Shown here one piece after another: positions 6,886 to 32,490 of a stretch of 64,000 bases of DNA. The translations under genes and the position numbers were made by a program. The notes beneath the pieces were generated by a model. That model was not told the DNA's origin. It made no database searches and was given only the letters and a program-made list of their open reading frames with translations. How positions within the stretch are numbered: position 1 is the first letter of the stretch; every line of letters begins with the position of its first letter. The stretch comes from Gordonibacter sp. Marseille-P4307 (GTDB lineage: Bacteria > Actinomycetota > Coriobacteriia > Coriobacteriales > Eggerthellaceae), in the NCBI RefSeq assembly GCF_900604965.1, contig NZ_UWPD01000001.1:1341311-1405310 (forward strand), read 5' to 3'.

Positions 6886-7562
6886 AGCACCCCGCATCCT
6901 TTGAGGACGGCGACCGCGACGCCGTACGACGCGAGCACGCCGATTGCCAGGTAATCCGCAAGCCCGAACGCCACCTCCACGTACGAGGTATGCTCGCCCG
7001 GCGCATCGAGCCCACGGCACAGGGCCGCTGCGGAAAGTTCTTCGGCGACGTTCACCGCCGAGAATATGAGCGGGACCATGATATGCTCGAGCGAGACGCG
7101 GATACCGCGCATTTTCATGGCCGCGCGAATAGAATCCCACTCCTCGCGAATCGTCGGGAAGTAGCGAAATGTCACGGATAGCGGAATCACCACCGACTGC
7201 GGGAGCCGCAGCTTGCGCATGGCGGCCACGAACTCGCTCACCTCCGTGGTGTCGAGAATCCACTTCCCCAGAATCCAGCAGGGCATGAACTTGCGCAAGG
7301 TGAGTGCCAAAAACGACACGAGAGCGAAAGCCATCCCCGAAAGCTGCGGGGCCATCAACCTGTCGACAAGAAGCATGACCAGAAAGACGACCAGGTACCG
7401 CACCGCGTTCTTAGCCCGCCTCGACACGAGGCTTACGACCTCGCAGTACAAGAACAGCATGACCTCGAGCACAAGGGAATGGCTCGCAAGGAGCAGGAAG
7501 TTCACACCGAGCAGCAGCGCGAACTTCGTTCTCGGGTCGAATCTGGCGATCGGCAGGCTCAC
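6882..7562 (-). CDS. ecfT: ECF transporter transmembrane T component
   Basis: 226 residues, strongly hydrophobic in its first 130 with about five membrane spans. Two Ala-x-x-Arg-Gly-type coupling motifs are visible, AAMKMRG (about 145) and AALCRGL (about 182), which in the EcfT/CbiQ family touch the ATPase grooves. It starts at GTG 7562, overlapping the stop of the S-like gene (GTGA), and its own stop overlaps the ATPase start (ATGA), so the three genes are translationally coupled. It would scaffold the S component and the fused ATPase in the membrane. Confidence 0.9.
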   Translation of the reverse strand: MSLPIARFDPRTKFALLLGVNFLLLASHSLVLEVMLFLYCEVVSLVSRRAKNAVRYLVVFLVMLLVDRLMAPQLSGMAFALVSFLALTLRKFMPCWILGKWILDTTEVSEFVAAMRKLRLPQSVVIPLSVTFRYFPTIREEWDSIRAAMKMRGIRVSLEHIMVPLIFSAVNVAEELSAAALCRGLDAPGEHTSYVEVAFGLADYLAIGVLASYGVAVAVLKGCGVL

Positions 7563-8167
7563 GAGACGATGCCGGCTTTCTGGAAGTGCTTCTTGAACAT
7601 TCTCTCGCTGATAAGCACGCCGACAAATCCGCAGGCCACGGTTGCAACGATCATGACGAGCAGAACCCAGATCGGCGTGATGGAAGCGAGCGCGTCAACG
7701 AACTCCTGGCTCATGCCGCGGCTCAGCGTGTCGGCGAAGAAATAGTCCCGCATGACCCAGATCGGCAGAAAGCCGCCGATGAGGTTCAGGTCGAAGAACA
7801 AATAGCTTATCGCATTGCGCCCCTTGCTCTTGAACCCGCCGCTCCCGGCGATGACCTCGGCGATGATACCGAACAGGGCCCCGAACGGGACCACGATCCA
7901 GATATTGCCCATGAGCAGCAAGAATAGACTCGGCAGCACAGCCGCGATGAAAATCGGCCCGTGCAAGGGAGCCTTCGTCACGAGCATGAGGTACACCGGC
8001 GCCCCCACGAGCGCGATGATGCTCGTCATGGCAAGGTAGAGCGGCGGCACGGGCATGCACACGGTCCCGATGACCGCGAACACCACGAAATACAGCGCGA
8101 TGAACACGCCTGCCGAAACGAGCTGCTTCGATTTCTTAACGTTCGTTTTCCCCATTTGATCGGACAT
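7559..8167 (-). CDS. MptD/Trep_Strep-type integral membrane protein, putative ECF substrate-binding (S) component
   Basis: 202 residues with about five or six hydrophobic spans (for example QLVSAGVFIALYFVVFAVIG, PPLYLAMTSIIALVGAPVYL). The overall pattern, with GPIFIAAVLPSLFLLLMGN and an AEVIAGSGGFKS segment, fits the Trep_Strep/MptD family, which act as S components in ECF-type systems and often sit beside YbtP/YbtQ-like genes. AAGGAGAAG lies six bases before the ATG. The gene is between the two ABC half transporters and ecfT, so it is the best candidate for recognising the imported ligand. Ligand identity cannot be read from sequence. Confidence 0.8.
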   Translation of the reverse strand: MSDQMGKTNVKKSKQLVSAGVFIALYFVVFAVIGTVCMPVPPLYLAMTSIIALVGAPVYLMLVTKAPLHGPIFIAAVLPSLFLLLMGNIWIVVPFGALFGIIAEVIAGSGGFKSKGRNAISYLFFDLNLIGGFLPIWVMRDYFFADTLSRGMSQEFVDALASITPIWVLLVMIVATVACGFVGVLISERMFKKHFQKAGIVS

Positions 8168-8191: not shown

Positions 8192-9931
8192 TCATGCGAC
8201 CCACGCGCGGCTTTTCTCCTGAATGGTGAAAAGCCGCGCGTACAGGCCGTTTCTGCCCATAAGCTCGTCGTGCGTCCCAATGTCGTCCACCCGCCCCCGA
8301 TCGAGCACGATAATCTGGTCGGCATCGGTTACCGTGCTCAGCTTGTGCGCGACAACGAGCACCGTCCTTCCCGCGACCAACCGCGACAGCGCCCGATGGA
8401 CTTCGTACTCGCTGGCGGGATCGAGCGCAGCCGTGGCCTCATCGAGCAGGATGACCGGGGAGTCCTTGAGCATGGCGCGCGCGATGGATATGCGCTGCCG
8501 CTCGCCGCCGGAAAGCGTGCTGCCGTTCTCACCGAGCAGCGTGTCGTAACCGTCGGGCAGCGCGCGCACGAACCCGTCGCAGCACGCCGCGCGAGCAGCG
8601 ACCATGACCTGCTCGTCCGTCGCTTGGGAGTTCCCGATGCGAATGTTGTTCATCACGGTGTCGTCGAAAAGGACGACGTCTTGGAACACGAAGGACAGGT
8701 AGTTCATAAGGTGCTCGGAATCGACCGAGCGCACGTCGATTCCGCCGATGCGCACCGCGCCTGCATCGACGTCCCAGAACCGGGCGATCAGGCGCAGAAG
8801 CGTGCTCTTTCCGCTTCCGGAAGGGCCGACGATCGCCGTCACCTTCCGCTCGGGAATCTCGAGGTCGATCCCGCTGAGGACCTCGTCGTTTCCATAGGAG
8901 AACGACGCGTTGTCGAAATGGATGTCGAAGCGCTCGATTTCGATCGCCTCGCCTTCCATGCGCGGGATGGCGAACAGCTCCCTGATGCGCTTCGTCGAGG
9001 CGATGGTATGGAACAGCATGGGCAGCAGCGTGAGAATGGAGAGGATGGGGCCGTACACCCGACACACGACCGCGCACGACAGCAAGAACGGGAGCAGTTC
9101 CATATCGCCGCCGATGAACAGGCGCGCGCCTACGAACACCGTGATGCCGATGCCCGCCTGCAGCACGAACTGAGCGACCGATATGACCACGCCGGTCTTC
9201 AGCTCCATCTTCACCGAAGCATCGCGCAGCTCGGCGAGCGCGCTCTTAAGCTCGGACGCCTTTTCGCCCCCGAGGCGGCATTCCTTGATGACCCTGATGC
9301 CCTCAAGGTACTCCTGCGTCTTCTCGGAAGCGGCCGCTTTCGCCGCCACCTGCCGCACACTCGCCCGCTGCTGCGCCCTGCGGCTTACGATCACGATGAG
9401 CAGTGCCAACGGCAACGTGCAGAATATGGCGAGCGCCATCCTCCAATCGAAGAACGCGATGCCGACGCACACGATCGCCATGGAGATGCAGTCGGCGACG
9501 AGCGGCGGAACGATATGGCTCAACGCATGCTCTATGTTGGCACAATCGCCCATGAGGCTCCCCGTCAACTCGGCGAGGCTCTTCTCGTTGAACACGCTCA
9601 TCGGGAAGTGGCGGACGGTCTCGGCGATGCGCAGGCGGCTGTCCTCGGCCGCCGTATAGCAGCTGACGTAGGTTTTCCGGTAGTCGTTGCGCGAGCAGAA
9701 ATAGGAAAGGACCATGATGACCAGCCCCGCTCCGAAGAGCATCCACAGACGCTCCCAGGAAACCTCTCCGCCGTCGAGGGGCGCGAGAATCTCCTGGAAT
9801 ACGAGCACGACCACGAGCACGGACAGAAGCGTCACCACGTTCGTGAGCGTGCAGGCGAGAATGCCCCGTCCGAGATCGGCCGTCGCAGCGTCGGATATTT
9901 GGAACAGGTCCTGAAGCTTCTTCATGATCAT
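8192..9931 (-). CDS. ABC half transporter (permease-ATPase), YbtP/YbtQ-like
   Basis: 579 residues: an N-terminal six-span membrane domain (about 1-310) fused to an ABC ATPase with Walker A GPSGSGKST (about 365), signature LSGGERQR, Walker B VILLDEATA and switch His in VVAHKLST. It overlaps the preceding half-transporter gene by four bases (start ATG 9931, upstream stop at 9928), so the two probably form a heterodimer. In the yersiniabactin locus the homologous pair YbtP/YbtQ takes up the metal-siderophore; other members of this fold export. Directly upstream of an ECF module within a metallophore-like operon, import or handling of the product is the more likely job. Confidence 0.87.
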   Translation of the reverse strand: MIMKKLQDLFQISDAATADLGRGILACTLTNVVTLLSVLVVVLVFQEILAPLDGGEVSWERLWMLFGAGLVIMVLSYFCSRNDYRKTYVSCYTAAEDSRLRIAETVRHFPMSVFNEKSLAELTGSLMGDCANIEHALSHIVPPLVADCISMAIVCVGIAFFDWRMALAIFCTLPLALLIVIVSRRAQQRASVRQVAAKAAASEKTQEYLEGIRVIKECRLGGEKASELKSALAELRDASVKMELKTGVVISVAQFVLQAGIGITVFVGARLFIGGDMELLPFLLSCAVVCRVYGPILSILTLLPMLFHTIASTKRIRELFAIPRMEGEAIEIERFDIHFDNASFSYGNDEVLSGIDLEIPERKVTAIVGPSGSGKSTLLRLIARFWDVDAGAVRIGGIDVRSVDSEHLMNYLSFVFQDVVLFDDTVMNNIRIGNSQATDEQVMVAARAACCDGFVRALPDGYDTLLGENGSTLSGGERQRISIARAMLKDSPVILLDEATAALDPASEYEVHRALSRLVAGRTVLVVAHKLSTVTDADQIIVLDRGRVDDIGTHDELMGRNGLYARLFTIQEKSRAWVA

Positions 9932-11739
9932 GCTCCCTCCCCTCCTTTCAGCTTCCAGGTCATCGAGGCGCTATAGTGATTCCATAGATCGTAGAAGCGT
10001 CCCTTCGAATCCATGAGCTGGTCGAACGTTCCCTGTTCCACAATCGAGCCCTTATCCATGACCAGAATGTTGTCCGCATTGCGAACGGTCGAGAGGCGAT
10101 GGGCGATCATGATGACCGTCTTGTCCTTCATAAGCTCGCCGAGCGCAGCCTGGATTAGGTGCTCGTTCTCCGCATCGGCGAACGCGGTCGCCTCGTCGAG
10201 CACGAGGACGGGCGAGTTCTTGGCAAGGGCGCGGGCTATGGCGAGCCGCTGGACCTGTCCGCCGGAAAGCTTCGCGCCGCCCGAACCGTACACCGTGTCG
10301 TAGCCCTGCGGCAAAGCCCGGACGAACTCGTCGCACTGGGCGGCCTTCGCGGCAGCAACCACCTCCTCGCGCGTCGCATCCTTGCGCCCCATGCGGATGT
10401 TCTCGAGAATGCTCTGCCCGAACAGGAACGTGTCCTGGAACACGAACCCGACCGTCTTCATGAGGTCGTCGCCTTTCAGGTCGCGCACATCGACGCCGCC
10501 GATGCGCACCGAACCCTCGTCCACATCGTAGAAACGGGGAATGAGGCTCGCGATAGTGCTCTTGCCGCCGCCGGAAGCGCCGACGATGGCAGTCACCTGC
10601 TTCTCGGGAGCCGTGAACGTGATGTCCGAAAGCGCACGGGAACCCTCGGGGCCTTCGTAAGAGAAACTCACATGGTCGAACGTCACATCGAAACTTTGCG
10701 GAGCATTCTGCACGCCTTCGGGAAGGGATTTCTCGGCGAGAATGGCGTCCATGCGCTCCGCAGCGCTTACGAACTGCTGCGCGTTCGCCATGGCGTAGAT
10801 CAAGCGCATGAGCACGCTTCCGATAACGGGAACGAATATCAAATAGAAGATGAACGAGGCCGCGAAAACCCGGTAGTCCTCCGCATGGGCCCCGATGAGG
10901 ATGCCCGCCGGAATCAACAGCAGATAAATCGACGAGAACGCCGTGGTCAACGAAGCCGTCATGTTCTCCTGGCTCAACGAATACGGGATGACCGCGCTCG
11001 TGTAGCGGTTAATGGATCCTTTCAGGCGCCCGAACGATTCCGCCGTCTGCTGGAACGCCTTGATGACGCCGATGCCGCGCACATACTCGGTCGACGCGTT
11101 CCCCATGTCCTCGAGGGCAGAGCGGTACTCCTCTATCATCTGCTTCTTCTGGGCGCCGGCCGACGTCGCTCCGTACAGCACGAACGCGATGACGATGCCG
11201 AGTAGCGACACCAGGCCGAAGCGCCAATCGAAGGCGAGGACCACCGCGATCATGAGCAGCGGGGCCACGCAGGCCGACACCATGTTGGCCAGATCATGGG
11301 CGATGAACCCTTCCAGGCTCTCGATCTGGTCGTCCATGACCTCGCGCAGACGCCCCGTGCCGGTGCAGAAGAAGAACCCGAGGGGCAGCGTCGCCAAGTG
11401 CTCGAGGAAGTTGACCTTGAGCTGGTACAACGTGCCGTACGCAGCAATGTGCGACAGCGCGACCGACACCATGTACAGCACGATGTTCGCGAACACCCCC
11501 GCAAGCGCCAGAGCGGCGTAGAGCAGCACCGCCTGCGCATCGAGTGCCGAAACATCCGGGTATACGGAAAGCACCTCCCTGATGACCAGGTAGATGGCCG
11601 CGTAAGGGACGAACGAGGCCGCAGCCGAGGCGACCGAGAACACGATGGCCACCACCATCGGCCCCTTCTTCATCATCGCGATTTCGAGCAGACGGGAAAG
11701 CCCTGCGTTCCCGCCGTCCCCCTCGCTTTTCTCGCGCAT
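9928..11739 (-). CDS. ABC half transporter (permease-ATPase), partner of the following gene
   Basis: 603 residues. Six-span membrane domain (about 1-330) followed by an ATPase with GASGGGKST, LSGGQVQR, VLVLDEATA and IAHRLST. The stop codon overlaps the start of the next half transporter, and its own start overlaps the stop of the carrier-protein gene (TGATG), which fits stoichiometric expression as a heterodimer. Both ATPase sites look catalytically complete, unlike many exporters with one degenerate site. Sequence style matches YbtP/YbtQ, IrtAB and related siderophore transporters. Direction of transport is inferred, not proven. Confidence 0.87.
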   Translation of the reverse strand: MREKSEGDGGNAGLSRLLEIAMMKKGPMVVAIVFSVASAAASFVPYAAIYLVIREVLSVYPDVSALDAQAVLLYAALALAGVFANIVLYMVSVALSHIAAYGTLYQLKVNFLEHLATLPLGFFFCTGTGRLREVMDDQIESLEGFIAHDLANMVSACVAPLLMIAVVLAFDWRFGLVSLLGIVIAFVLYGATSAGAQKKQMIEEYRSALEDMGNASTEYVRGIGVIKAFQQTAESFGRLKGSINRYTSAVIPYSLSQENMTASLTTAFSSIYLLLIPAGILIGAHAEDYRVFAASFIFYLIFVPVIGSVLMRLIYAMANAQQFVSAAERMDAILAEKSLPEGVQNAPQSFDVTFDHVSFSYEGPEGSRALSDITFTAPEKQVTAIVGASGGGKSTIASLIPRFYDVDEGSVRIGGVDVRDLKGDDLMKTVGFVFQDTFLFGQSILENIRMGRKDATREEVVAAAKAAQCDEFVRALPQGYDTVYGSGGAKLSGGQVQRLAIARALAKNSPVLVLDEATAFADAENEHLIQAALGELMKDKTVIMIAHRLSTVRNADNILVMDKGSIVEQGTFDQLMDSKGRFYDLWNHYSASMTWKLKGGEGA

Positions 11740-13041: not shown

Positions 13042-14268
13042 TTACAGTTCAACGTAGCGTGCGAGCTCGGCGCGCGTAGGGTCGTCCCAGGCATCCACAT
13101 CGAGCCCTTTCTGGGAGAGCAGGGCGAACGCGAGCCGTTCGACGCCGAACGCGAAGCACGACGTGTAGCAGTAGTCGCGCGCCTCGTTGCGAATGGAGAA
13201 GGGCTTCGAGAAATGGGTGCGATGGAAGTTCATCGATCCGCACGATATATACGAAGAATGCGCCGGGATATTCCATTTGAACTCGCGTTTCGAGTCGCCG
13301 AGCACCTGGAAGAACTTGAGCTTCTTGTAGTTCGACGCGAAAAACGAGTCGTTCGCGGTATCGAGCTTCGTGTTCGCGGAGAACGTCTCGCGCCAGAAAT
13401 CCCACAGCAGCTTCGCCTTCACCATGCGCTCGCTGCACTGCTCGGGGGACCCGACGAACACGTACTCCTTCATATGGAACTCGTTGATGCGCGCAAGCTC
13501 GAACACGTTCGCGCCTTCGTTGCGAAAGCACGTGCCCGACACGAGGAATTCAAGCGGGGCGTCGCTTGGAACCGTGGCGCCTTCGAGCATCTCGTAGACC
13601 GGGACGCAGGCGGCATGGCGCAGGACGTTTTCGGGGGTACGGGTCTGTTCGAACACCGATCCGTCGCCGACGCCTTCGCGGGCGAAGCGATCGAGCACCT
13701 GGATGTCGTTCTTCAGGGAGGTTTGGAACATCATGTAGTGGGGGAAGTTCTCGAAGTACCCACCCTGCTCGTACCGGGAAATCGGATGGAGCACCGGGAA
13801 ATCGTGCTCGCAGATGCTCGGGAAAGTCGCACGCCCGTAGTCCTCGATCTTGGCATCGAAGTACTGGAGCGCCTTCAGGAAGAGGCCGCTGTACGCATAG
13901 GAGCCGTGCGCCATCTCGCGGACATCGCCGCGCGCGAGCAGCTGCTCGAAGATCGATTCCTCATTCGCCACGGGCACTCCAGAGTAATCCTCGAGCGTCT
14001 TCACGGGCACCTCCCTGCCCTTGAGCCCTCCCCCTTCGACCATGCCGTAGAGGATTTCGATCTGAGCCCGCACCTCGCCCTCATCGCACGCGCGGCACGC
14101 TACCGCAATGCCACGGTCGTCCTTATCGACGCTAACGATCTTCGGGGAAACGTACGGGAGCATCTCGTAGAAGAACTGCCGGTCTGAGGAGATGCGCTCC
14201 TCGTCGCACAAAAACGTCACCATCTGAACAACGACTCCCTGATCGTTCGTGTAATCCTTTTCCATCAT
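13042..14268 (-). CDS. Class II aaRS-like amino acid:[carrier protein] ligase
   Basis: 408 residues resembling the catalytic core of atypical seryl-tRNA synthetases but without the coiled-coil tRNA arm. Motif 2 is visible as GTCFRNEGANVFELAR (about 245-260) followed by INEFHMKEY, and motif 3 as CFAFGVERLAFALL (371-384). Cys221, Glu263 and Cys371 are spaced (42 and 108 residues) much like the zinc ligands Cys-Glu-Cys of the characterised Bradyrhizobium amino acid:[carrier protein] ligase (spacing 45 and 103), so an active-site zinc is likely. Those enzymes adenylate a small amino acid (Gly or Ala) and load it on a carrier-protein phosphopantetheine. The partner is probably the 79-residue carrier two genes downstream. 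The start overlaps the NRPS stop by four bases. Confidence 0.88.
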   Translation of the reverse strand: MMEKDYTNDQGVVVQMVTFLCDEERISSDRQFFYEMLPYVSPKIVSVDKDDRGIAVACRACDEGEVRAQIEILYGMVEGGGLKGREVPVKTLEDYSGVPVANEESIFEQLLARGDVREMAHGSYAYSGLFLKALQYFDAKIEDYGRATFPSICEHDFPVLHPISRYEQGGYFENFPHYMMFQTSLKNDIQVLDRFAREGVGDGSVFEQTRTPENVLRHAACVPVYEMLEGATVPSDAPLEFLVSGTCFRNEGANVFELARINEFHMKEYVFVGSPEQCSERMVKAKLLWDFWRETFSANTKLDTANDSFFASNYKKLKFFQVLGDSKREFKWNIPAHSSYISCGSMNFHRTHFSKPFSIRNEARDYCYTSCFAFGVERLAFALLSQKGLDVDAWDDPTRAELARYVEL

Positions 14269-17200
14269 CGTCGTGCCTCATGGGCGTCCCGCGCACGACG
14301 CCAGCAATCGGGCCAGGGAAGCGCAAGCACCTCGAACCACGTCAAGCCGAACGCGGAGGCAAGGGCGAGGGCGTCCTGCTCGTTTCCGCCCATCTCGACA
14401 AGGCTCGTGGCATCGCCGATATCCTTGTCGGGAAGGTGCGCGCGGCAGGTCGCGAGGACGAAATCATCGCCCGAATCCTCGTTTCGGGCGGCGAGCCGTT
14501 CCTCAACAAGCGGAATCCAGTCCGCTACGATCGGATTGTTCAGCACGTCGTACACTTCGAGTTCCACGCCCATGCTCCGATAGAGCTTTGAGATGAACTG
14601 CATGGCGGCAACCGAATCTCCGCCGATGAAGTAGTAGTTGTCGTCGGGCGCGACGCGATCGAGATGCAGGGTCTCCGCCAACAGAGAGCACACCTGCTCC
14701 TCCACGAGGGCCCCTTCGGTCGCAGCGCGGCAACAAGCTTCTTCAGATTGCCCGCGCCCGACGCCGACCTTCCACTCCGCGAGCGCCTTTCGATCGGGTT
14801 TGCCGTTATACGTAAGCGGCAGCGCTTCGAGGGCGACGATGTACGCGGGAACCATGTAGTCGATAAGCCTGCTCTCGAGCACAGAGCGCACCTCGGCCGG
14901 CGCGGGGAATCCGACGTAGAACAGCGCGATGCGCCCCGTCTCGCGATGGAGCACGCAACAGCTTGCCTCGATACTGGAAAGCTCGGTGACCCGCCGCTCG
15001 ATCCCTCCGAGCTCGATCCGCTTCCCGTGCACTTTCACCTGATTGTCGGCGCGCCCCATAAAGCGGATGTTTCCGTCGGGCAGGCGCACCCCCCGATCCC
15101 CGCTTTCGAACATCCTGGCACGGCGCACCGTGCGGAAGCGAAGCGCAGTCTGCTCGGGATCGCCCGCGTAGCCCGTCGCGACCCCGACGCCCTCGATGAA
15201 CATCGTTCCCGCAACGCCAAGGGGGCATTCGCGCAGGCGACCGTCGAGCAGGTGGTACTTCGCATTGGGAAACGGACGGCCGTACGGAACGAACCCTCGC
15301 TCGATATCCTCCCGCTCGATAGGATGCGAGATGTTCCAGATAGTGGTCTCGGTCGGACCGCCGACGCTGAACGCCCGCACCTCGTCCGAAAGCGAGAGCG
15401 CAGCTTCGGCGGTTGCGAGCCGGATCCAATCCCCGCCGAGCACAACGCGCTTGAGATGCCCCAACGCGCGCTTGGCCTCGGACGATTCGGAAGCGAGGGC
15501 CATCTCGAACAGCGCGGGCACCGAATTCCAGAAATTCACGCCGTAATCGCAGATGAGCGACGCAAGGTATCTCTGGTCGCGCACGCGCTGGGAGTCCGGC
15601 ACCACAATACTACCGCCGAGGGCGAGCATCCCAAGGTAGTCGAACAGCGACATATCGTGGCAAAAACTCGTAACCGCAAGCGCCCGCCACGAAACACCCG
15701 AATCGAGCGCAAAGCGCTCACGTGAATGTACAAGGCAGTTGACGATACCGGCCTCTCCCAGAAGAACGCTTTTCGGATATCCCGTCGTGCCCGAAGTATT
15801 GATGATCACAGCCGCACCATCGGGGTCGTTCAGCACTGCGGGACTCCAAGTCGAAGCCTTGGCTGCCCACGCCTCGGCGATCGAGGACCCGAGCGATCCG
15901 TCCCATCTGTTCCCGTCGATCACCGGCACGCCTATCGATGCGGCTTTCTCCTGCAGGGACCTGTCCGCAACGATAAGGTTCACCTGCGCGTGCTCGATGC
16001 ACCACGCGATTCCGTCCGCAGGCAGCGTGGCTTCGATGGGCATGTAGGCGATTCCCGCGAATACGACGCCTAAAGCGACCTCGATCTGTCGAAGCCCCTT
16101 CTCCATGAGGATGCCGATACGCAGACCGCAGGCATCGCGCTTCCAGGCGAGCAGGTCCTCAGCGATTTGAGCGGCACAGGCCCACACCTCGCCGTACGAA
16201 TGCGCGCGTCCTTCGGCGATAATCGCGGGTTCGTCCCAGTGCGCGCGCACCGATTCCAGCAGAAGGTCGGCAAGCGCAGGCCCCGCATCCGACTCGTCCC
16301 CGTTCGCAGAATCCACGACGGCCTGCTCGTCAGAACCCAAGCCGAGCTCTTCGACGTCAAGGACACCCGCATCGCCGCATACCGAGCGCACCAGGTCGAA
16401 AAAACGACGAATCACGCGCTCAAGCAAATCGCCGTCAACGCGGTCGGGGCGATAGGTCGTAAGAATGTCGAAGCCGTCCTCGCCGCCGAGAACCAGGGTC
16501 TCGACGTCCAACGACGCCGTTTCGACACGGACCGATTTCAGCGAGAAGGGCGCAAACGATGCACTCTCCCCTCCTGGCAGAACGGCCGTGAAGGACCACG
16601 GTAACGCAATCGGAGCTCCTTTGCGCTCCTGCAAAAGCCGCACGGTATCGGGCCCGGACAGCGCCGCATGGTCCTGCAGGTCCCAAAGCGTCCCCTGCAC
16701 CCGATCGGCCGTTTCGCCGAGCGTCTCAGGGCCGTTTGCAGCCTGCCACGGGTACACGAAGAAGTCGGCACACATGCCCACGGTGTTCTCGATGCCCTCG
16801 AGCTCGTAGGAGCGCAGCGAACGCGGCATCAAGAGCAAAAACGACGGAGCCTCGCTGTATCGGTCGAGCACGCGCAAATACAGGGAGAGCAGGAGCGCGA
16901 AGGACGTGAGGCCGCGCCCGCGCGCGACCTCTTCGAAGCGCGCTCGCTCATCCCACCCGATCGCATGTGCGATATGCACCGTTTCCGCAGATTGAATCGG
17001 AGGCGCACAGCGAGTCAGCGCGAACCCCTCCGCCTCCACAGGAACGGCACCTTTCCAGAACCCCCGCGCGCGTTCGGTCTCGGCAGCATCGTGCGCCGTA
17101 TTCAGGTAGTCGACGAATCGCCCAAACGGGCATTCCTCCTCGACTTGGTCGCCCTGGTATAACATTCCCAGGTCGCGCACCATGATGTGCTGGCTTTCAC

Positions 17201-17630
17201 CGTCCATGCCGATACCATCGGTCAACGTGAGAATCGACGCGCTGCCGTCGGGAAAACGCACGACATGTACCGCCTGCAGCGCCGTCTCCTGCGGGGCGCG
17301 CTCCGAGAACACCTTCTGTTTCAGGTTCTCCACCTGCTCCGATGACTTATCGTGGCTCCCTTCGACATCGTGGTAGACAATAGGAACGGCGCCCTTTGTC
17401 CCCACCTGCTGGAAGCCCTCATCGACCGAGAAGACGGCCGTGAGCATAGGATGCGTCCGGCAAAGCTCTTCCAAAGCGCACTCGAAACGCCCGGCATCGA
17501 AGCTTGAGCAGAACAGCTCGTAAAGCTCCCGATCCGGAGCAGGACCCTGATCCGTGCGGCTCTGCCGCTGCAGAGCGTAGCTTTCCTGCAAGGGCGTGAA
17601 CGCGATACGCTCGATCGATTCACCCAGCAT
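14265..17630 (-). CDS. NRPS with Cy-A-PCP organisation, predicted Cys/Ser/Thr-type module
   Basis: 1121 residues. Residues 1-420: condensation-fold domain with DGIGMDGES at 138-146, matching the D-x4-D-x2-S motif of heterocyclization domains, although the later SQTPQ-type motif is not recognisable. Residues 450-950: adenylation domain with the A3 core INTSGTTGYPKSVLL, A5 GGPTETTIWNI and A7-like ESGDRGVRLPDG. Pocket residues around HDMSLFDYLG, NFWNSVPALFEM and TTIWNI resemble Cys-type codes (DLYN...), so Cys, or Ser/Thr, is expected. About residues 970-1040: PCP with FIGGDSVAAMQF. There is no thioesterase domain; release must use a separate enzyme. The last 60 residues match nothing I know. 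It would form a thiazoline or oxazoline ring. Start overlaps the upstream carrier stop (TAATG). Confidence 0.88.
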   Translation of the reverse strand: MLGESIERIAFTPLQESYALQRQSRTDQGPAPDRELYELFCSSFDAGRFECALEELCRTHPMLTAVFSVDEGFQQVGTKGAVPIVYHDVEGSHDKSSEQVENLKQKVFSERAPQETALQAVHVVRFPDGSASILTLTDGIGMDGESQHIMVRDLGMLYQGDQVEEECPFGRFVDYLNTAHDAAETERARGFWKGAVPVEAEGFALTRCAPPIQSAETVHIAHAIGWDERARFEEVARGRGLTSFALLLSLYLRVLDRYSEAPSFLLLMPRSLRSYELEGIENTVGMCADFFVYPWQAANGPETLGETADRVQGTLWDLQDHAALSGPDTVRLLQERKGAPIALPWSFTAVLPGGESASFAPFSLKSVRVETASLDVETLVLGGEDGFDILTTYRPDRVDGDLLERVIRRFFDLVRSVCGDAGVLDVEELGLGSDEQAVVDSANGDESDAGPALADLLLESVRAHWDEPAIIAEGRAHSYGEVWACAAQIAEDLLAWKRDACGLRIGILMEKGLRQIEVALGVVFAGIAYMPIEATLPADGIAWCIEHAQVNLIVADRSLQEKAASIGVPVIDGNRWDGSLGSSIAEAWAAKASTWSPAVLNDPDGAAVIINTSGTTGYPKSVLLGEAGIVNCLVHSRERFALDSGVSWRALAVTSFCHDMSLFDYLGMLALGGSIVVPDSQRVRDQRYLASLICDYGVNFWNSVPALFEMALASESSEAKRALGHLKRVVLGGDWIRLATAEAALSLSDEVRAFSVGGPTETTIWNISHPIEREDIERGFVPYGRPFPNAKYHLLDGRLRECPLGVAGTMFIEGVGVATGYAGDPEQTALRFRTVRRARMFESGDRGVRLPDGNIRFMGRADNQVKVHGKRIELGGIERRVTELSSIEASCCVLHRETGRIALFYVGFPAPAEVRSVLESRLIDYMVPAYIVALEALPLTYNGKPDRKALAEWKVGVGRGQSEEACCRAATEGALVEEQVCSLLAETLHLDRVAPDDNYYFIGGDSVAAMQFISKLYRSMGVELEVYDVLNNPIVADWIPLVEERLAARNEDSGDDFVLATCRAHLPDKDIGDATSLVEMGGNEQDALALASAFGLTWFEVLALPWPDCWRRARDAHEARR

Positions 17631-17860: not shown

Positions 17861-19125
17861 CGCCTCTCCTCTCCAGATTCGCGCCCCTCGCATACCGCCG
17901 CCGCGGCACCTGCACCCGCCCCTGCTGCCGGGCGCGCCAACAGCTCGTGCACGAGCTTCGAAAAACGTTCGAACCAGGCCTCGATTTCGCCGGCGCCCTC
18001 CATTTCCTGCGGAAACACCCAGCTTGTCAGAAGCCCGTCGTTCAAAAGGAAGAACTGCGCGTCAAGGCAGACGTTCGGGGTCTGCGAGATCATGTAGGTC
18101 AAATCCCCGAAGGCAGCGCGAAACGTATCGCCGATAAACGTACCGTTCTGATTGAACGAGTACACGAGCGGCACCAGGGAATCCGAGCATGCGTACCGAG
18201 TCGGCCGAGCCGATGCGCGCTGCTCGAGAAAGCCGGCGCGTATCTCGCGTGCGAGTGCGATCGCATCCCTCTCGGCCGTACGTTCGACCGAAAGCCAGAC
18301 AAGCTCGGTCAGATCGCGCACGGGATCCTCTCCGTCAGGAGCCGGCGCGAACCAGGGGATGTTCGCAACGAATCCGTCGCGATTGCCGGACGCAGCGGTT
18401 TTCGCCAAGCAAGCGAGCATACCGCAGAACAGATCGCTGCCCGCACCTTCGAAGAGCGCCTGCAAACGTTCGCGACTCGCCTCATCGAAACGCTCGTCAA
18501 GGGAGCGGTAGCGGCATCCGCTCAGTCCTGCGGCATTCTTTCCAAAAGCGAACGAGGGGACCAGAGAATCGACTTCCACAACGTTGAAATCTCGCACGGA
18601 GGGAGCGCCTCCCCAGATGAGAGGCGGGAGCGCGCAATCAGGATCCTCGTAGATCCGCGCGAGTTCGCCCAACAGCTCCTGGAAGCCGTTAACGTCGCAA
18701 AGCACGAGGTCGACATCGAAGCACATCCTCGAACGTCCAGCGGGTAGCAGCACGAGCACGAGCCCGCAACCCTGACCGCGCGAAAGGTCCATGATGCGGT
18801 GCGAGAAGTTCTTCCTGCAATCGTCGAGCAACCCGCGCACGTTCTCGTCATCGTGCTCCCGCGCATCGATCAGCCAGAACGTATTGTTCCCTGCATCCGA
18901 ACCGATGCGAAGATCTCCGTCTTTGTCCACTCGAGCACGCGTCATCGCATGGCGCGCCGTAAGGCGCTTCCACGCCCGTCGCAAACGCGCGCCGTCAACG
19001 TCCGCGCCGTCGAACTCCAGGTACGTATGGCACGCGACCCCGCCGAGCGAGCGCTTCAGCTCCCGCCCCACCAGGTAGGACTTCTGCAAGTCGGTCAGCT
19101 GCGGACGAACCTCACTTCCCACCAT
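17857..19125 (-). CDS. Free-standing NRPS cyclization (Cy) domain
   Basis: 422 residues, the size of a single condensation-fold domain. The N-terminus LTDLQKSYLVGR is the Cy-type C1 motif and SQTPNVCLDAQFF (about 360) is the Cy-specific motif also seen in VibF, Irp2 and BacA Cy domains. The core motif reads DLVLCDVNG (about 163-171), so both Asp are kept but the final Ser of D-x4-D-x2-S is Gly. The NRPS Cy domain shows the opposite pattern (core intact, SQTPQ lost). This suggests one domain condenses and the other dehydrates, as in the tandem Cy domains of VibF. An alanine/glycine-rich tail ends the protein. It overlaps the aryl ligase end by 14 bases. Confidence 0.86.
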   Translation of the reverse strand: MVGSEVRPQLTDLQKSYLVGRELKRSLGGVACHTYLEFDGADVDGARLRRAWKRLTARHAMTRARVDKDGDLRIGSDAGNNTFWLIDAREHDDENVRGLLDDCRKNFSHRIMDLSRGQGCGLVLVLLPAGRSRMCFDVDLVLCDVNGFQELLGELARIYEDPDCALPPLIWGGAPSVRDFNVVEVDSLVPSFAFGKNAAGLSGCRYRSLDERFDEASRERLQALFEGAGSDLFCGMLACLAKTAASGNRDGFVANIPWFAPAPDGEDPVRDLTELVWLSVERTAERDAIALAREIRAGFLEQRASARPTRYACSDSLVPLVYSFNQNGTFIGDTFRAAFGDLTYMISQTPNVCLDAQFFLLNDGLLTSWVFPQEMEGAGEIEAWFERFSKLVHELLARPAAGAGAGAAAAVCEGRESGEERR

Positions 19126-20656
19126 GGACCGCCGCCTCCTTCAGCCCCTCGCGATCAATCTTCCCCACTGCAGTGAGCGGCCAGCTGTCGAGCCGCTGCA
19201 GCTGGTCGGGAATGCAGCAGTCCTCCATATGACGGCTGCGCATATACGCGGCAGCCTCGACAAGCTCGATATCCCGCTCGCCGATATAGAACGCGCATAT
19301 CGCCGTTCCGAGCACCTCGTCCGCAACGCCGACGACAGCGCACTCGGAAACGGCATCCATTCCCATCAGCACGTCCTCCACCTCCGAGGGCATGATCTTC
19401 TCTCCCGCGCGATTGATCTGCTCGTGCACGCGCCCGGTAATGCGGATGTCGCCCGAAGGAAGGCGCAGGCCCTTGTCGCCGGGCCGGTAGAACCCGTCCC
19501 TGAAGCTCGACTCGTTCGCCGGCACGTCGCCGAAGTAGCGCTTGATGGTATAGGGACCCTTCACGATCACCTCGCCCTCGACTCCGTCCTCGACATCGGC
19601 GAAATCCTCGTCGACGATGCGGAAGACGTCCTCAGGCGAACGAGGCCGTCCCTGGGACCCATAACGGACGTCGTCGGGAGCGTCGAGGTCCGTAAGAAAC
19701 GTCATGCCCTCCGCCATGCCGTATACCTGAACCAAGCGCGCTTCGAATGCGGCTTCGGCCTCGCGGGCCTGAACGGGCGAGAACACCGACCCGCCTACAA
19801 GGAAGTATTGCAACGAGCCGATATCGTCGCTCGCATCGATGCTGCGGTAGCGGACGCACAAACTCGACACCGTGGGCACGAAGCTCGCGATGGTCACCTG
19901 CTCCCGTCCGATCCAGTCGAGAATCTCGAGGGGACTGGGGTACTCGCACATGACGTTCTTGCCGCCAACCAGCACCGTTCCGATCATGCCGGGAGTGCCC
20001 AACGCGAAATTGTGAGCAGCGGGAATCGCCGTGAGCATCACGCTGTCCGCATCCATGCGGCAATGGCGCGCGGTGATGAGCGCATTGTAGCTGTACGCCC
20101 CGTTCGTGCGCCCGATAAGCTTCGGTATGCCGGTCGTTCCCCCCGAAAGCGAGAGGAAGGCGACATCACCTGGCTTCGGAGACTCGATATCGCACTCCAC
20201 GACACGACCGCTCGAAAGCTCATTGCGCAGCTGCACATCGGTGAACAGCCGCTCGAGGCTTCCGCAGCGCTCGAGCATGCGAACGCCGATGGCATAGCAT
20301 TCCCGGTCGAGCGAGTCTTGCGACGTGACGTAGGCCTTCGGTTGCGACGCTTCGCAGAGCGCCTCGATGACGTGCTCGCGATGCATCGGCAAAATGAACA
20401 CGGGAAGCGCCCCGAGCGAGAACAGCGCGAAGCACACCACCTCGAACATCACCGAATTCGGCATCTGCACGATGACCCGGTCGCCCTTCTCGATGCTGTG
20501 CGCGAAGAAAAAGCCCGCTATCCGCTTCGATGCATCGAGCAGCTCGGCGTAGGTCATGCGCTCGAACCGATCGACGACCGCCGTCCTTTCGCCGAACGAG
20601 GCCGCCGTGCGCTCGAGCAATCCCACAAGCGTCTCCGTTTCCCATTCCCGTTCCAT
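19112..20656 (-). CDS. Aryl-acid AMP ligase of the EntE/DhbE/YbtE type
   Basis: 514 residues from ATG 20656, chosen because AAGGGG lies eight bases before it; a start at 20680 is also possible. AMP-binding cores are LSLSGGTTGIPKLIGRT, VQVYGMAEGM and GFYRPGDKG, and the catalytic Lys is in TAVGKIDRE near the C-terminus. The segment AAHNFALGTPG corresponds to the AHNYPLSSPG of DhbE, whose Asn235 contacts the ortho-hydroxyaryl acid; here Asn is kept while Tyr236 is Phe and Ser240 is Thr. Changes at these positions are associated with salicylate rather than 2,3-dihydroxybenzoate in the family, so a hydroxybenzoate-like starter is likely but its exact identity is open. No gene for making salicylate or DHB is in the cluster. 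Confidence 0.88.
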   Translation of the reverse strand: MEREWETETLVGLLERTAASFGERTAVVDRFERMTYAELLDASKRIAGFFFAHSIEKGDRVIVQMPNSVMFEVVCFALFSLGALPVFILPMHREHVIEALCEASQPKAYVTSQDSLDRECYAIGVRMLERCGSLERLFTDVQLRNELSSGRVVECDIESPKPGDVAFLSLSGGTTGIPKLIGRTNGAYSYNALITARHCRMDADSVMLTAIPAAHNFALGTPGMIGTVLVGGKNVMCEYPSPLEILDWIGREQVTIASFVPTVSSLCVRYRSIDASDDIGSLQYFLVGGSVFSPVQAREAEAAFEARLVQVYGMAEGMTFLTDLDAPDDVRYGSQGRPRSPEDVFRIVDEDFADVEDGVEGEVIVKGPYTIKRYFGDVPANESSFRDGFYRPGDKGLRLPSGDIRITGRVHEQINRAGEKIMPSEVEDVLMGMDAVSECAVVGVADEVLGTAICAFYIGERDIELVEAAAYMRSRHMEDCCIPDQLQRLDSWPLTAVGKIDREGLKEAAVHGGK

Positions 20657-20666
20657 GGGAATCCCC

Positions 20667-20930
20667 TTACGCCCGCTCATCGAGCTTGCGCTCGATGAGC
20701 GCGGTCAGAGAGTTCACGGATATGGGCTCCATTAGGTTCAACTCGTCGGCCAGCGTAACGTCGAACGTCTCCTGGCACGTGAGGAACACCTGGACGATGG
20801 CGATACTGTCGGCTCCCACGTCCTCGTAGAACAGTGCGTCGTCGTCGAATTCAGCGCCCCCGTCCGAGAGCATCTGCTCGAGCGTCGTCCGGATCGTCTC
20901 CTTGATCTGCGTCTCGTTTACCGTGCTCAT
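20667..20930 (-). CDS. Free-standing acyl/aryl carrier protein
   Basis: 87 residues, acidic. The phosphopantetheine Ser lies in YEDVGADSIAIVQVF (about residue 42), the GxDS form typical of ACPs. It follows a ligase gene with a four-base ATGA overlap and precedes the aryl ligase gene by ten bases, so either adenylating enzyme could load it. It probably carries the acyl substrate of the 528-residue ligase. Needs modification by the operon's PPTase. Confidence 0.88.
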   Translation of the reverse strand: MSTVNETQIKETIRTTLEQMLSDGGAEFDDDALFYEDVGADSIAIVQVFLTCQETFDVTLADELNLMEPISVNSLTALIERKLDERA

Positions 20931-26009: not shown

Positions 26010-26486
26010 CTACCGGACAACCCGTTTGACCATGAGCACCTCCGTAGCCTTGCGCCTGAACAGCCCGTCAAGCTCGGTCACCTCGCGGTAACCGCGCTTC
26101 TCGTACATGGACCGGGCGAAGTCGTTGTCCTTGTTCACCAAAAGGAAGGCGTTGGTGCAGACGAGCCGCCTGCCGTCGTCTTCCAGGATCTCGTTCTCGA
26201 AAAAGTCCATGAGCGCGCGACCGAAACCCCTGCCCTGACAGTCCTCCCTGACCACGATCAGATGCAGATAGGGAAACGAACGGAAAGCGCCCCGACGCTG
26301 AAACCACACGACCCCTACCGCCTCGCCGTCATCGGTGGCGAGAAAGCAATCGTCCTCGCTGATTCCCCGTTCGAGCTCGCGACGAAGGAACTCCTCGGTC
26401 GGATAGTAGCCCCTTCCCAGGGCGGTACCGAAGATCAAGCGCGCACACGGGGCCGCTTCTTCCCGTGTCAGCCTTTTCGTTACCAC
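26010..26486 (-). CDS. GNAT-family N-acetyltransferase
   Basis: 158 residues from a GTG at 26486 with a strong AAGGAGG seven bases before it; the start overlaps the PPTase stop. The acetyl-CoA-binding motif is visible as VVREDCQGRGFGRALMDFF (R/Q-x-x-G-x-G/A). Followed by NKDNDFARSMYEKRGYREV, the typical motif B. It would acylate an amine on a small molecule or protein. In the operon it may modify the product or serve in self-protection; the substrate cannot be told. Confidence 0.85.
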   Translation of the reverse strand: MVTKRLTREEAAPCARLIFGTALGRGYYPTEEFLRRELERGISEDDCFLATDDGEAVGVVWFQRRGAFRSFPYLHLIVVREDCQGRGFGRALMDFFENEILEDDGRRLVCTNAFLLVNKDNDFARSMYEKRGYREVTELDGLFRRKATEVLMVKRVVR

Positions 26487-27154
26487 AGCGACCTCCTTCT
26501 CCCTGTTTCCAAAAGCTCCTTGGAAGATGTGAACTCCCAGGAAATCGACTCGTCTTCCGCCGTGCAGACGGAAAGCAGGTAGTCCCTTCCCACTGCAAAG
26601 GTTCGAAACGACGGCCCTTTGCAGCCGTCCGAAAGAACCGGAACACGACCTTCCAGATCGAAGGAGACCGCCTTCAGGTCGTAGCCCAACCCGCAACCCC
26701 GATATTTCCCGAGCGCCTCCTTCAACGTCCAGATAGCGCACGCGAAGCGGTTCCTATGCGCAGGGGCGAGGCGACCGCGCACCGCACGCTCGCCCGCCGA
26801 AAGCACGTGGGAGGCGATGCCCGAAAAGTCACGCGACGCATTCTCGATATCGATTCCGACAGGCCCCTCGCCGAGTGCGCAGACCGCATAATCGCCGGAG
26901 TGGGCGATGCTGAACTGGATGTTCGGCTCGCTCGCGAACGCGGGCTTCCCCTGCGGCCCGCGCACTATATCGAGCTTGCGGGAAGAGGCCCGCTCGGCCA
27001 AAACAAGAGCCAGCAAGTACCCAGTGCTCGAAGCGCTCCGAAAACGTGCACTGGAGGCCTTCTTGTACTGGTTCACCTTCCACTCGGGAAGCGCGCCCCA
27101 ACACTCCTCAAGGGAAGCTTCTTCGTCGACTTCCGCGATCGAGATGAAGGCCAC
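26480..27154 (-). CDS. Sfp-type 4'-phosphopantetheinyl transferase
   Basis: 224 residues from GTG 27154, with AAAGGAG upstream. Motifs of the Sfp/EntD family: GKPAF and IQFSIAHSGDYAVCAL, then the metal-binding VGIDIE, and WTLKEALGKYRG (W-x-x-KEA). It activates the carrier domains of the operon: three free carriers and the NRPS PCP. First gene after the promoter and operators at about 27.2 kb, a sensible place for a gene that must act early. Confidence 0.92.
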   Translation of the reverse strand: MAFISIAEVDEEASLEECWGALPEWKVNQYKKASSARFRSASSTGYLLALVLAERASSRKLDIVRGPQGKPAFASEPNIQFSIAHSGDYAVCALGEGPVGIDIENASRDFSGIASHVLSAGERAVRGRLAPAHRNRFACAIWTLKEALGKYRGCGLGYDLKAVSFDLEGRVPVLSDGCKGPSFRTFAVGRDYLLSVCTAEDESISWEFTSSKELLETGRRRSLW

Positions 27155-27172: not shown

Positions 27173-27205
27173 TTAGCTTTAACTAATCAAGTTAGGCGTT
27201 ACTAA
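27173..27205. promoter_or_regulatory. Tandem TTAG-N6-CTAA operators before the biosynthetic operon
   Basis: Two palindromes, TTAGCTTTAACTAA (27173-27186) and TTAGGCGTTACTAA (27192-27205), lie 19 bases apart between the start codon of the PPTase and its promoter. TTAG-N6-CTAA is the core repeated in the 19-base DtxR/IdeR iron-box consensus; extended over 19 positions these sites match it at 12 and 11 positions. A third copy precedes the MFS gene (28589). Site 2 overlaps the predicted -10, the layout of a repressor. Confidence 0.68.
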
Positions 27206-27232
27206 CTGTATACAAAAAAGCGAGTGTGTCAA
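27205..27232 (-). promoter_or_regulatory. Predicted sigma-70-type promoter of the biosynthetic operon
   Basis: On the minus strand TTGACA (27232-27227) is followed after 16 bases by TACAGT (27210-27205), a perfect -35 with a 4/6 -10. Transcription would begin at about 27198 and read the PPTase gene. The -10 is covered by the downstream operator, consistent with repression. Confidence 0.6.
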
Positions 27233-27290
27233 AGGAAAAATTGCCGCAAATATCTTCTAAGTTGAATAAAACGCGCGAAAGGCAGCGGAA

Positions 27291-28547
27291 CTAAGCTGCC
27301 CCGTCCGAAAACGAAGGACGCGCCGCCTGCGACTTCACCCTATAGGGCGCATACAGGAGCAACGCGGCAGCCCCCAGCATATCGGCGCAGGCGAGCATCG
27401 CCAGAACGTAAGCGGGATCAAGACCGAGCTGCAAAATAAGCCCGCCTGCAGCTGGCGACGCAACGGCCCCCAAACGACCGAACCCGAGCGTGAATCCGAG
27501 CGCCGCAGAACGGGACTCCTCGGGGAAGGCATTCGAAACGAGCGCATTCGTCAAGTTCTGGGCGCTGATGGCGCCCACGCCGGCAAAGAACACCAGAACC
27601 ACCAGCGCAACGCTCCCCTCGGGACGCGCAGCAACCCCCAGAAGACAGAGAGTCGCAAGGGCGGCGCTCGTCATGGCCACGCCCTTCGCAGAAACCTTCG
27701 TTGCAAGCCAGGCCGTCACGAGCGAACCGAGCACGCATCCGAAGTTCAGGACGACCATCATTTGCAGCGAGTTCTCCAAAGGCAGATTGAATTCGCGCAT
27801 GAGCTGGGCGAGCCAGGTGCTGATACCGTAGTAGGCCATAAGGAACAGAAACGTGGTCAACGCCAGCAGGCACAGGCGGAAGAGCGCGCGACCCTCGAAA
27901 CGCACCGGGGCCGTCGGATGTCCGTTCGATCGCGCGGTTCGAGACAGGCGCGGCGATTGCTCCACCTGCTTCGCCACGAACGGCATGATGAACGCGAGCA
28001 GAACGAGTCCGATCAAGCCGGCGACGAACATGAGGGGCCGCCATCCGAAGACCGAGAGGAGCGCGGCGCACAGAAACGCCGCCATAAGACCCCCGAACGG
28101 TATCCCCGTCATAACGATGCTGATGACCAGGGCGGACATACGACGCGTCGAATAGGCGCGCGCAAGCGACATCGCAACGGGAAGCACGACCCCCAGCCCC
28201 AACCCCGCCAGCGCGCGCAGAGCACCGAGCACCGCACCCGAGGGAGCGAACGCCGCCGCTGCGACAGCCAGGCTGAACCAGATGACGCCGAAGGCAATCG
28301 TGCGAACGTAGCCGAGCCTGCGTTTCACGGCACCTGCCGAAATACCGCCGAAGAACATACCCAAAAAGGTCATGCTTCCGATGAAACCGGCAGCGGCCTT
28401 ATCGACGCCCATATCGGCATCGCCGATCAGAGGCGGAATCAGACTGCTGTAGATAATCAAATCGAAGCCCTCGCAGAGCATAACGCATGCCATGCCGAAG
28501 ACGATAGGCCAGTTCACCAGTCGAGAAAACGGTGATGAGATTCCCAC
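27291..28547 (-). CDS. MFS transporter of the aromatic acid/proton symporter (AAHS) type
   Basis: 418 residues from GTG 28547 (AAGGAGG six bases upstream), with twelve predicted spans. The first span region (LCEGFDLIIYSSLIPPL) carries the GFDL-type charged motif of AAHS transporters such as PcaK, BenK and MhbT, and AGAVKRRLGYVRT is the MFS loop 2-3 motif. Such proteins import benzoates and related aromatic acids. It is in the same orientation as the biosynthetic operon, 137 bases upstream, and shares its operator. Import of a hydroxybenzoate starter for the aryl ligase is an attractive reading; efflux of the product is the alternative. Confidence 0.8.
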   Translation of the reverse strand: MGISSPFSRLVNWPIVFGMACVMLCEGFDLIIYSSLIPPLIGDADMGVDKAAAGFIGSMTFLGMFFGGISAGAVKRRLGYVRTIAFGVIWFSLAVAAAAFAPSGAVLGALRALAGLGLGVVLPVAMSLARAYSTRRMSALVISIVMTGIPFGGLMAAFLCAALLSVFGWRPLMFVAGLIGLVLLAFIMPFVAKQVEQSPRLSRTARSNGHPTAPVRFEGRALFRLCLLALTTFLFLMAYYGISTWLAQLMREFNLPLENSLQMMVVLNFGCVLGSLVTAWLATKVSAKGVAMTSAALATLCLLGVAARPEGSVALVVLVFFAGVGAISAQNLTNALVSNAFPEESRSAALGFTLGFGRLGAVASPAAGGLILQLGLDPAYVLAMLACADMLGAAALLLYAPYRVKSQAARPSFSDGAA

Positions 28548-28588
28548 GTCGCGCCTCCTTCGCATCTGATGGCATTGCCGCCTTTTTA

Positions 28589-28602
28589 TTAGATGTTCCT
28601 AA
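28589..28602. promoter_or_regulatory. TTAG-N6-CTAA operator before the MFS gene
   Basis: TTAGATGTTCCTAA, 42 bases before the MFS start codon. Extended to 19 bases it matches the DtxR/IdeR box at 13 positions, the best of the three copies in the window. It links this gene to the biosynthetic operon's regulation. Confidence 0.6.
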
Positions 28603-31724: not shown

Positions 31725-32489
31725 CTACCGGGCGATGATGACAGTAACGAACCCAGGATCTATCTTCTCCAGATCGCGCTTGAGGCCGGTTGGATTGCGG
31801 ACACGTCTGTCCGGGTCGTAGATGAAGCAGAAAAGCCGCTCGCATCCCGGATGCCCCTTGTAATGGGGAATGTCGATGCTCAACTCATCGCCAAGATTCT
31901 TGTCGCGCAAGCCATTACGTGTCATCTTCACCTCAATGAAGCGCGCCTCATCTTTTAGAAAGAGATCAATGCGCGAGTTCTTTCCGGCGAAACTTGGCAC
32001 GGCTTCTTCATCGCGTACATCGTCGAAGTAGGCTAGGCAAATAGATCTGAGAAGATCTTGGACGTCGTATTCATCATTGATTGCATACCTGTCTCTCCCG
32101 TTATGCCTACGATTAATTGAGGCGACAACATCAGGAAATCTGTTGAGCATGCTCTCAATGACCGCATCAACATCATCCTCGTTAGTTTCGTCAAGATTGA
32201 TAATGCCGTTCTCGATTGCTTCACGCACACCTTGCAGTTGTCCCTGCCATTCCTCGGCAGTAGAGGTGTGATTAGTCTCTTCCTCCTCTAGCTTCTTAAG
32301 CAGCGTCTGTTGGTGCTCAGGCAAGACCTCATGCAGCATCATTGCTGCCGTAGCCTGCCAAGGGGAATAAAGCTCCGACTTTACCCAAGGTCCTCCAAAG
32401 ACGCCGTTGACGAAATAGGAAGTATCGAGTACCGCTTTACCTTCTTCGATTAATGATTCAAGCTTTGCAACGGCATCGTCTTTATTCAT
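31725..32489 (-). CDS. PD-(D/E)XK nuclease-fold protein associated with McrBC
   Basis: About 254 residues from ATG 32489, which follows the upstream stop by one base and has AAGGA four bases before it; an ATG at 32501 is an alternative. The C-terminal half carries the PD-(D/E)XK core: SRIDLFLKDEARFIEVKMT, with Asp and E-x-K, after a helical DVQDLLRSICLAYFDDV segment. The N-terminal half is helical (ATAAMMLHEVLPEHQQTLL). It is the last gene of a four-gene run with mcrB, mcrC and a DUF6508 gene. It probably contributes an extra nuclease to the defence locus. Base composition is lower in GC than in mcrB, suggesting separate acquisition. Confidence 0.75.
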   Translation of the reverse strand: MNKDDAVAKLESLIEEGKAVLDTSYFVNGVFGGPWVKSELYSPWQATAAMMLHEVLPEHQQTLLKKLEEEETNHTSTAEEWQGQLQGVREAIENGIINLDETNEDDVDAVIESMLNRFPDVVASINRRHNGRDRYAINDEYDVQDLLRSICLAYFDDVRDEEAVPSFAGKNSRIDLFLKDEARFIEVKMTRNGLRDKNLGDELSIDIPHYKGHPGCERLFCFIYDPDRRVRNPTGLKRDLEKIDPGFVTVIIAR

Positions 32490-32490
32490 G

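Follow-up and report, generated by a model that had tools for sequence, protein, structure and literature searches.

Predicted DtxR-type operators at an NRPS operon and an MFS transporter gene of an Eggerthellaceae genome

Results

Gene content of the NRPS operon and the MFS gene

We analyzed a stretch of DNA of 64 kb (hereafter, the window). It contains an NRPS operon and a gene for an MFS transporter, and these are on the same strand and are not divergent. The features are listed in Table 1. Judged by its NRPS, its EntE-like ligase, the ABC pair and the Trep_Strep ECF system, the operon likely directs the formation of a siderophore. For the chorismate-binding family, one partial match (residues 3-102 of 257) was obtained in the source genome, and a complete salicylate or isochorismate synthase was not seen there. 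Because this family is represented only by a partial match, the aryl starter, if one is used, may come from outside the cell's own synthesis. In the case of equibactin, production needed added salicylate (PMC3672683). The initial annotation described the MFS protein as an aromatic-acid transporter. However, this label is unsupported, because the protein scored 192.7 bits against TIGR00895 (aromatic acid/H+ symporter), for which the curated cut-off is 418.55. We consider both aryl-acid import and product export as possible roles of this transporter.

Positions 2797-29275 of the window are 99.57% identical to a segment of Slackia exigua, which belongs to a different genus, with 114 differences in 26.5 kb. 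This identity across genera implies a recent horizontal transfer. Position 29275 is the right end of the shared segment. On the left, the identity reaches the start of the compared stretch, so that the shared segment may extend further in this direction. The record of S. exigua ATCC 700122 (NZ_GG700630.1) contains the same NRPS gene with 99% identity. A Mutator-family transposase is encoded at 2261-3556. Just past the shared segment, at 31725-36141, a DpnII/MboI-type nuclease gene stands by McrBC-like genes and forms a restriction cassette.

Table 1. Features around the NRPS operon and the MFS gene (window positions), and loci of the source genome with high matches to the matrix (C2 positions)
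Feature	Position	Strand	Basis or remark
4'-Phosphopantetheinyl transferase, first operon gene	26480..27154	-	PF01648; start GTG 27154
MFS transporter	27291..28565	-	PF07690; Shine-Dalgarno suggests start GTG 28547
Aryl-acid/2,3-DHB-like adenylating ligase (EntE-like)	19112..20680	-	TIGR02275 390 bits, below cut-off 723.55
NRPS, condensation-adenylation-carrier	14265..17630	-	Domain content
ABC half-transporter pair	8192..11739	-	Operator sites also precede homologous pairs at other loci of the genome (L255)
ECF-type transporter: Trep_Strep S component, CbiQ-like T component, double ATPase	5392..8167	-	Domain content
Predicted sigma-70 promoter of operon	27205..27232	-	TTGACA-16-TACAGT, 10/12 consensus positions; mean in shuffles 0.0
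Operator O1 (predicted)	27173..27186	.	GTTAG-CTTTAA-CTAA(T); exact core; immediately 5' of Shine-Dalgarno of first operon gene
Operator O2 (predicted)	27192..27205	.	AGTTAG-GCGTTA-CTAACT; exact core; overlaps -10
Operator O3 (predicted)	28589..28602	.	Reverse complement GTTAG-GAACAT-CTAAT; exact core; 5' of MFS gene
FecCD ABC operon	C2:674494		High match 5' of operon, plus two more sites
Crp/Fnr-NEAT locus	C2:843135, 844053		High matches 5' of locus
Trep_Strep ECF loci (two)	C2:923197, 1515041		High matches 5' of loci
ABC half-transporter pairs	C2:1155059, 665447		High matches 5' of pairs
dtxR gene, upstream match	C2:764719		High match 5' of gene
dtxR gene, coding region	C2:765096-765479		Downstream of feoB; outside the window

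Three TTAG-N6-CTAA sites in the window

An exact search of the window with TTAGNNNNNNCTAA, the pattern for the TTAG-N6-CTAA core, gave three matches in total (O1, O2 and O3 in Table 1). This agrees with the initial annotation, which had placed the core at these three positions and nowhere else in the gene-bearing part of the window. When the window was shuffled with preservation of dinucleotides (n=100), the core occurred 0.15 times on average and twice at most, and none of the 100 shuffles contained three sites. At the start of the operon, the GTG codon is followed in the upstream direction by the Shine-Dalgarno sequence, O1 and O2, and the dyad axes of O1 and O2 are 19 bp apart. The only sigma-70-like promoter found there is on the minus strand and its -10 overlaps O2, as had also been noted before. 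Although this promoter is a consensus match only, the position of O2 on the predicted -10 is a placement of the repression type.

The initial annotation had likened the sites to the DtxR/IdeR box. Using TTAGGTTAGSCTAACCTAA as the 19-bp DtxR consensus, we reproduced its match counts of 12, 11 and 13 in the register used there. In the best register, each site matches at 13 of 19 positions, and no other position of the window exceeds 12. Thus, the likeness holds for the match counts and for the spacing, since the sites are palindromes with TTAG/CTAA half-sites at the DtxR distance. It does not extend to the canonical box with its two overlapping dyads and close match, because each site has one dyad and the 19-mer is matched partially. 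In DtxR-DNA structures, the box consists of two dyads that overlap, and one dimer is bound to each. In accordance with this, TTAGGTTAGCCTAACCTAA holds TTAG-N6-CTAA twice (positions 1-14 and 6-19). Because the box contains the core twice and one dimer occupies each dyad, a lone TTAG-N6-CTAA is understood as a single-dimer site rather than as a degenerate 19-mer. The sites are better denoted GTTAG-N6-CTAAC. Such a site is a single dyad that has an axis of its own, and it corresponds to one member of the overlapping pair in the 19-bp box. The sites of the window extend toward (AA)GTTAG-N6-CTAAC(TT).

The dyad stands before iron genes in Eggerthellaceae

AGTTAG-N6-CTAACT was found 55 times in 138 Eggerthellaceae genomes, as compared with 9 times for the reversed control, and at least 10 of the 55 sites stand 5' of feoB. 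Among 27 readable feoB upstream regions, 21 have the dyad with two mismatches or fewer, whereas none has the reversed control at this level of agreement; it should be mentioned that these loci are mutually related and are not independent counts. Other genera also have the site in the interval from the gene for the iron permease FTR1 to a DtxR gene, and in that from feoAB to a DtxR gene in divergent orientation (L113 and L125 for the two arrangements). Further sites stand 5' of genes for flavodoxin, Trep_Strep ECF components and ABC half-transporter pairs. The motif is therefore placed before iron-uptake genes and before the gene of the regulator itself (feoB, FTR1, FecCD, NEAT, ECF and dtxR). 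A DtxR-family gene is present in 132 of the 138 genomes. The six genomes without a DtxR match are also without the dyad, but their number is too small, and most of them are too incomplete, for this to be evidence.

Palindromes with a 6-bp spacer also fit MarR- and TetR-type proteins, and two Fur-family genes are present in the source genome. Therefore, we considered whether the sites bind another dimeric repressor, of the MarR, TetR or Fur family, that senses the product of the cluster or an aromatic acid, in which case the resemblance to DtxR boxes would be fortuitous. Fur boxes have a different sequence, and the stretches around both Fur-family genes are without the site, so Fur was set aside as the regulator. 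Moreover, the same dyad precedes feoB, FTR1, dtxR and FecCD genes, which are unrelated to the NRPS cluster, and the DtxR-like protein EqbA is known to use this core (PMC3672683). We regard control by such another repressor as quite unlikely.

Scan of the source genome

The initial annotation had proposed a genome-wide search with the motif and a check for iron genes among the matches. In the source genome (1.8 Mb), the bare 8-letter core gave 11 matches against 16 for the reversed control, which is no enrichment. The extended palindrome with three mismatches was also tried as a genome-wide test; this gave 27 matches against 35 in the control, and a matrix was used instead. Because the bare core alone is without power, the case rests on comparative evidence, which we judge to be strong. 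The matrix has 24 columns and was built solely from 21 feoB sites of other genomes, the source genome being excluded. O2 scored 22.7 and ranked second in 1.8 Mb, O1 scored 16.8 (rank 14), and O3 scored 10.8 (rank about 30), which is weak taken alone. At score 12, there were 24 matches against 9-13 in controls. Because this excess is only about twofold, some of the single matches will be due to chance. The matches are clustered: nine neighboring pairs lie within 1.5 kb, as compared with a mean of 0.85 and a maximum of 5 in 2000 trials of random placement. Thus, the bare core did not rise above its control, and the expected iron genes are found among the matches of the matrix (Table 1). At the feoB promoter of the source genome, no clear dyad was found among the top matches; the closest ones lie in the interval from feoB to dtxR and upstream of dtxR.

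Several matches mark other loci. Two dyads (C2:665447 and 665492, L048) stand 5' of an ABC half-transporter pair that is followed by a YcaO gene, and this is possibly an iron-controlled peptide or metallophore locus. Another dyad (C2:1447379, L270) is 28 bp upstream of a ZinT-like gene, after which comes an ORF resembling a zinc-type binding protein; from this dyad, the regulon may touch zinc too. Some matches have no obvious iron gene. For example, the 14 letters of O1 recur at C2:1644387, about 290 bp upstream of an amidinotransferase-like ORF (no Pfam match) and near an arginine deiminase gene, and an iron link was not seen there. Two of the best dyads (C2:1196112 and 824319) are at genes for CWB2 cell-wall-binding surface proteins, of which one has Rib-type repeats and the other is a subtilase.

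Conservation of the sites in other genera

Because O3 is weak in its own genome, support for it comes from its orthologs. The MFS orthologs of two other genera, G050 and G113, share 65% and 64% protein identity, respectively, with the MFS protein (68% at the DNA level). Both have a near-perfect dyad at the same upstream place (scores 23.4 and 24.0). In these two genomes, the MFS gene is not adjacent to the NRPS cluster, and the clusters have sites of their own: in G050 between a divergent pair of NRPS genes (score 25.9) and in G113 at the ECF end (score 19.2). In G089, the ECF, ABC and MFS genes are beside the NRPS, a DtxR gene is in the locus, and two sites (scores 16.3 and 14.5) lie between divergent transporter genes. 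In the MFS-side region of G062, no good site was found in the stretch examined (L136), where the best score was 6.7. According to these sequence comparisons, the coupling of the NRPS operon and the MFS gene by the site holds across genera even without physical linkage, and they bear out the link drawn in the initial annotation.

The three sites might also be a chance cluster in AT-rich spacer DNA, as the core count in the source genome, which is not above its control, would allow. However, the sites are conserved at orthologs that are only 68% identical in DNA, the family-wide count far exceeds its control, O2 ranks second by an independently trained matrix, and the matches are clustered. Coincidence is thus a highly improbable explanation.

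In the S. exigua copy (G099), O1 is identical. Between the two copies, changes are densest in O2 and the -10 (27195-27214), where 5 of 24 bp differ. The score of O2 is nevertheless kept (22.7 here and 27.5 in the S. exigua copy), and the -10 is TACAGT here and TATAGT in S. exigua.

The DtxR-family regulator of the host

The source genome contains a single DtxR-family gene with both domains (PF01325, 39.9 bits; PF02742, 58.7 bits; both above the cut-offs), about 600 kb from the sites. A DtxR gene was not found within the NRPS operon, and the chromosomal gene is the only candidate. The encoded protein has about 129 residues and is therefore too short for an SH3-like domain. Its metal residues are Cys-Glu-His of the DtxR type, and the Cys is present in 35 of 36 rows of the family alignment. 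The recognition-helix segment S-K-A-S-V-N/S-K is conserved among the DtxR proteins of the family. Its relatives with solved structures comprise iron-dependent repressors, MntR, DtxR and IdeR. At the position of DtxR Met10, the host protein has Asp, as do most family members.

Because MntR also has this Asp and MntR chains are among the solved relatives, the protein might bind the sites and sense mainly manganese, in which case the operon would be a manganese or mixed-metal system. Against this idea, the metal residues are of the DtxR type and the site recurs at iron genes (feoB, FTR1, FecCD, NEAT and flavodoxin). Furthermore, in EqbA, the cysteine is tied to the Fe2+ response (PMC3672683). We consider that manganese sensing is unlikely, and iron is favored by the genes that share the site.

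Discussion

Judging from the sequence comparisons, it is very probable that the only DtxR-family iron repressor of the host, a protein without an SH3 domain, uses the three sites as operators. It would release the NRPS operon and the MFS gene under low iron, a pattern known from a siderophore system of Streptococcus. The initial annotation had proposed metal-dependent repression of the DtxR/IdeR class, and this proposal gains support from the feoB promoters of other genomes, the iron genes of the source genome, the orthologs and the EqbA operator, for which binding was tested by EMSA (PMC3672683). When Fe2+ is plentiful, the metal-loaded DtxR dimer would bind GTTAG-N6-CTAAC. At the operon promoter, two dimers would sit on the -10 and the start region and thereby keep RNA polymerase out, and at the MFS promoter a single dimer on O3 would repress. 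When iron is low, the repressor would leave the DNA, and the operon and the MFS gene would be expressed alongside the other iron-uptake genes. The output of the operon would then be a siderophore-like product together with the ABC and ECF transporters.

EqbA is an Fe2+-responsive DtxR-like repressor without an SH3 domain that binds the promoter of eqbB in the equibactin NRPS operon (PMC3672683). In EMSA, the palindrome was required for binding, and Fe2+ and Zn2+ enhanced binding, Mn2+ less so (PMC3672683). The printed palindrome, AACTATTATTGTTAGATGTATCTAACAATAATAGTT, contains GTTAG-ATGTAT-CTAAC and was judged by its authors to be unlike other iron boxes (PMC3672683). This core is complete in O2, and one outer base is missing in each of O1 and O3. 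With the matrix built from Eggerthellaceae feoB sites, a score of 19.6 was obtained for the eqbB operator. By analogy, the EqbA operator offers the strongest outside support for regulation by DtxR.

DtxR-family operators before siderophore-type operons are already known. As far as our literature search shows, the iron-regulon motif of Eggerthellaceae is new, and so is the finding that it agrees with the core of the EqbA operator: the motif was met in no paper other than that on EqbA (PMC3672683), and a description of a DtxR regulon in this family did not turn up. The present analysis gives an explicit iron-regulon motif for Eggerthellaceae. It also suggests that the uncharacterized NRPS operon, near-identical in S. 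exigua and a different genus, likely forms a product of iron starvation, and this hints at how the operon could be switched on. Because the core is common to these sites and the EqbA operator of Streptococcus, it suggests a way in which such clusters can come under regulation straight after transfer. A wider proposal, about which we have more doubt than confidence, is that GTTAG-N6-CTAAC represents a distinct iron-box class of SH3-less DtxR proteins in Eggerthellaceae (Actinomycetota) and Streptococcus, and that siderophore clusters move without their own repressor, join the iron regulon of the new host at once and are fine-tuned later. The later fine-tuning is proposed because the operon operator and the -10 are the densest difference between copies that are 99.6% identical.

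Comparison with known systems

Like each of the overlapping dyads in the DtxR/IdeR iron box (TTAGGTTAGSCTAACCTAA), the present sites have TTAG and CTAA half-sites at a distance of 6 bp, and they too are connected to an iron regulon. They differ from this box in having one dyad per site with 13 of 19 matches at best, in a host regulator without the SH3 domain, and in that the two operon sites are in tandem, whereas the dyads of the box overlap. Boxes of the SirR/ScaR/MtsR type (TTAACTTGACTTAA) resemble the present sites in their TTAR/YTAA half-sites with 6 bp between them. However, their half-sites are TTAA and not TTAG, and their Mn/Fe regulators have a third domain. MntR of Bacillus subtilis and E. 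coli is, like the host protein, a two-domain DtxR-family protein of similar length with Asp at the position of DtxR Met10, but MntR has Glu where the host protein has Cys, and the regulon here is one of iron uptake.

The eqb system of ICESe2 in Streptococcus equi has in common with the present one the GTTAG-N6-CTAAC core, an SH3-less DtxR-like repressor and a horizontally mobile cluster. Its operon likewise combines an NRPS with a phosphopantetheinyl transferase, a thioesterase and ABC transporters. The eqb palindrome differs in its length of 36 bp with long AT arms, and the biosynthetic genes differ as well. The gene for EqbA is located inside the eqb cluster; by contrast, the host dtxR is a chromosomal gene outside the NRPS cluster.
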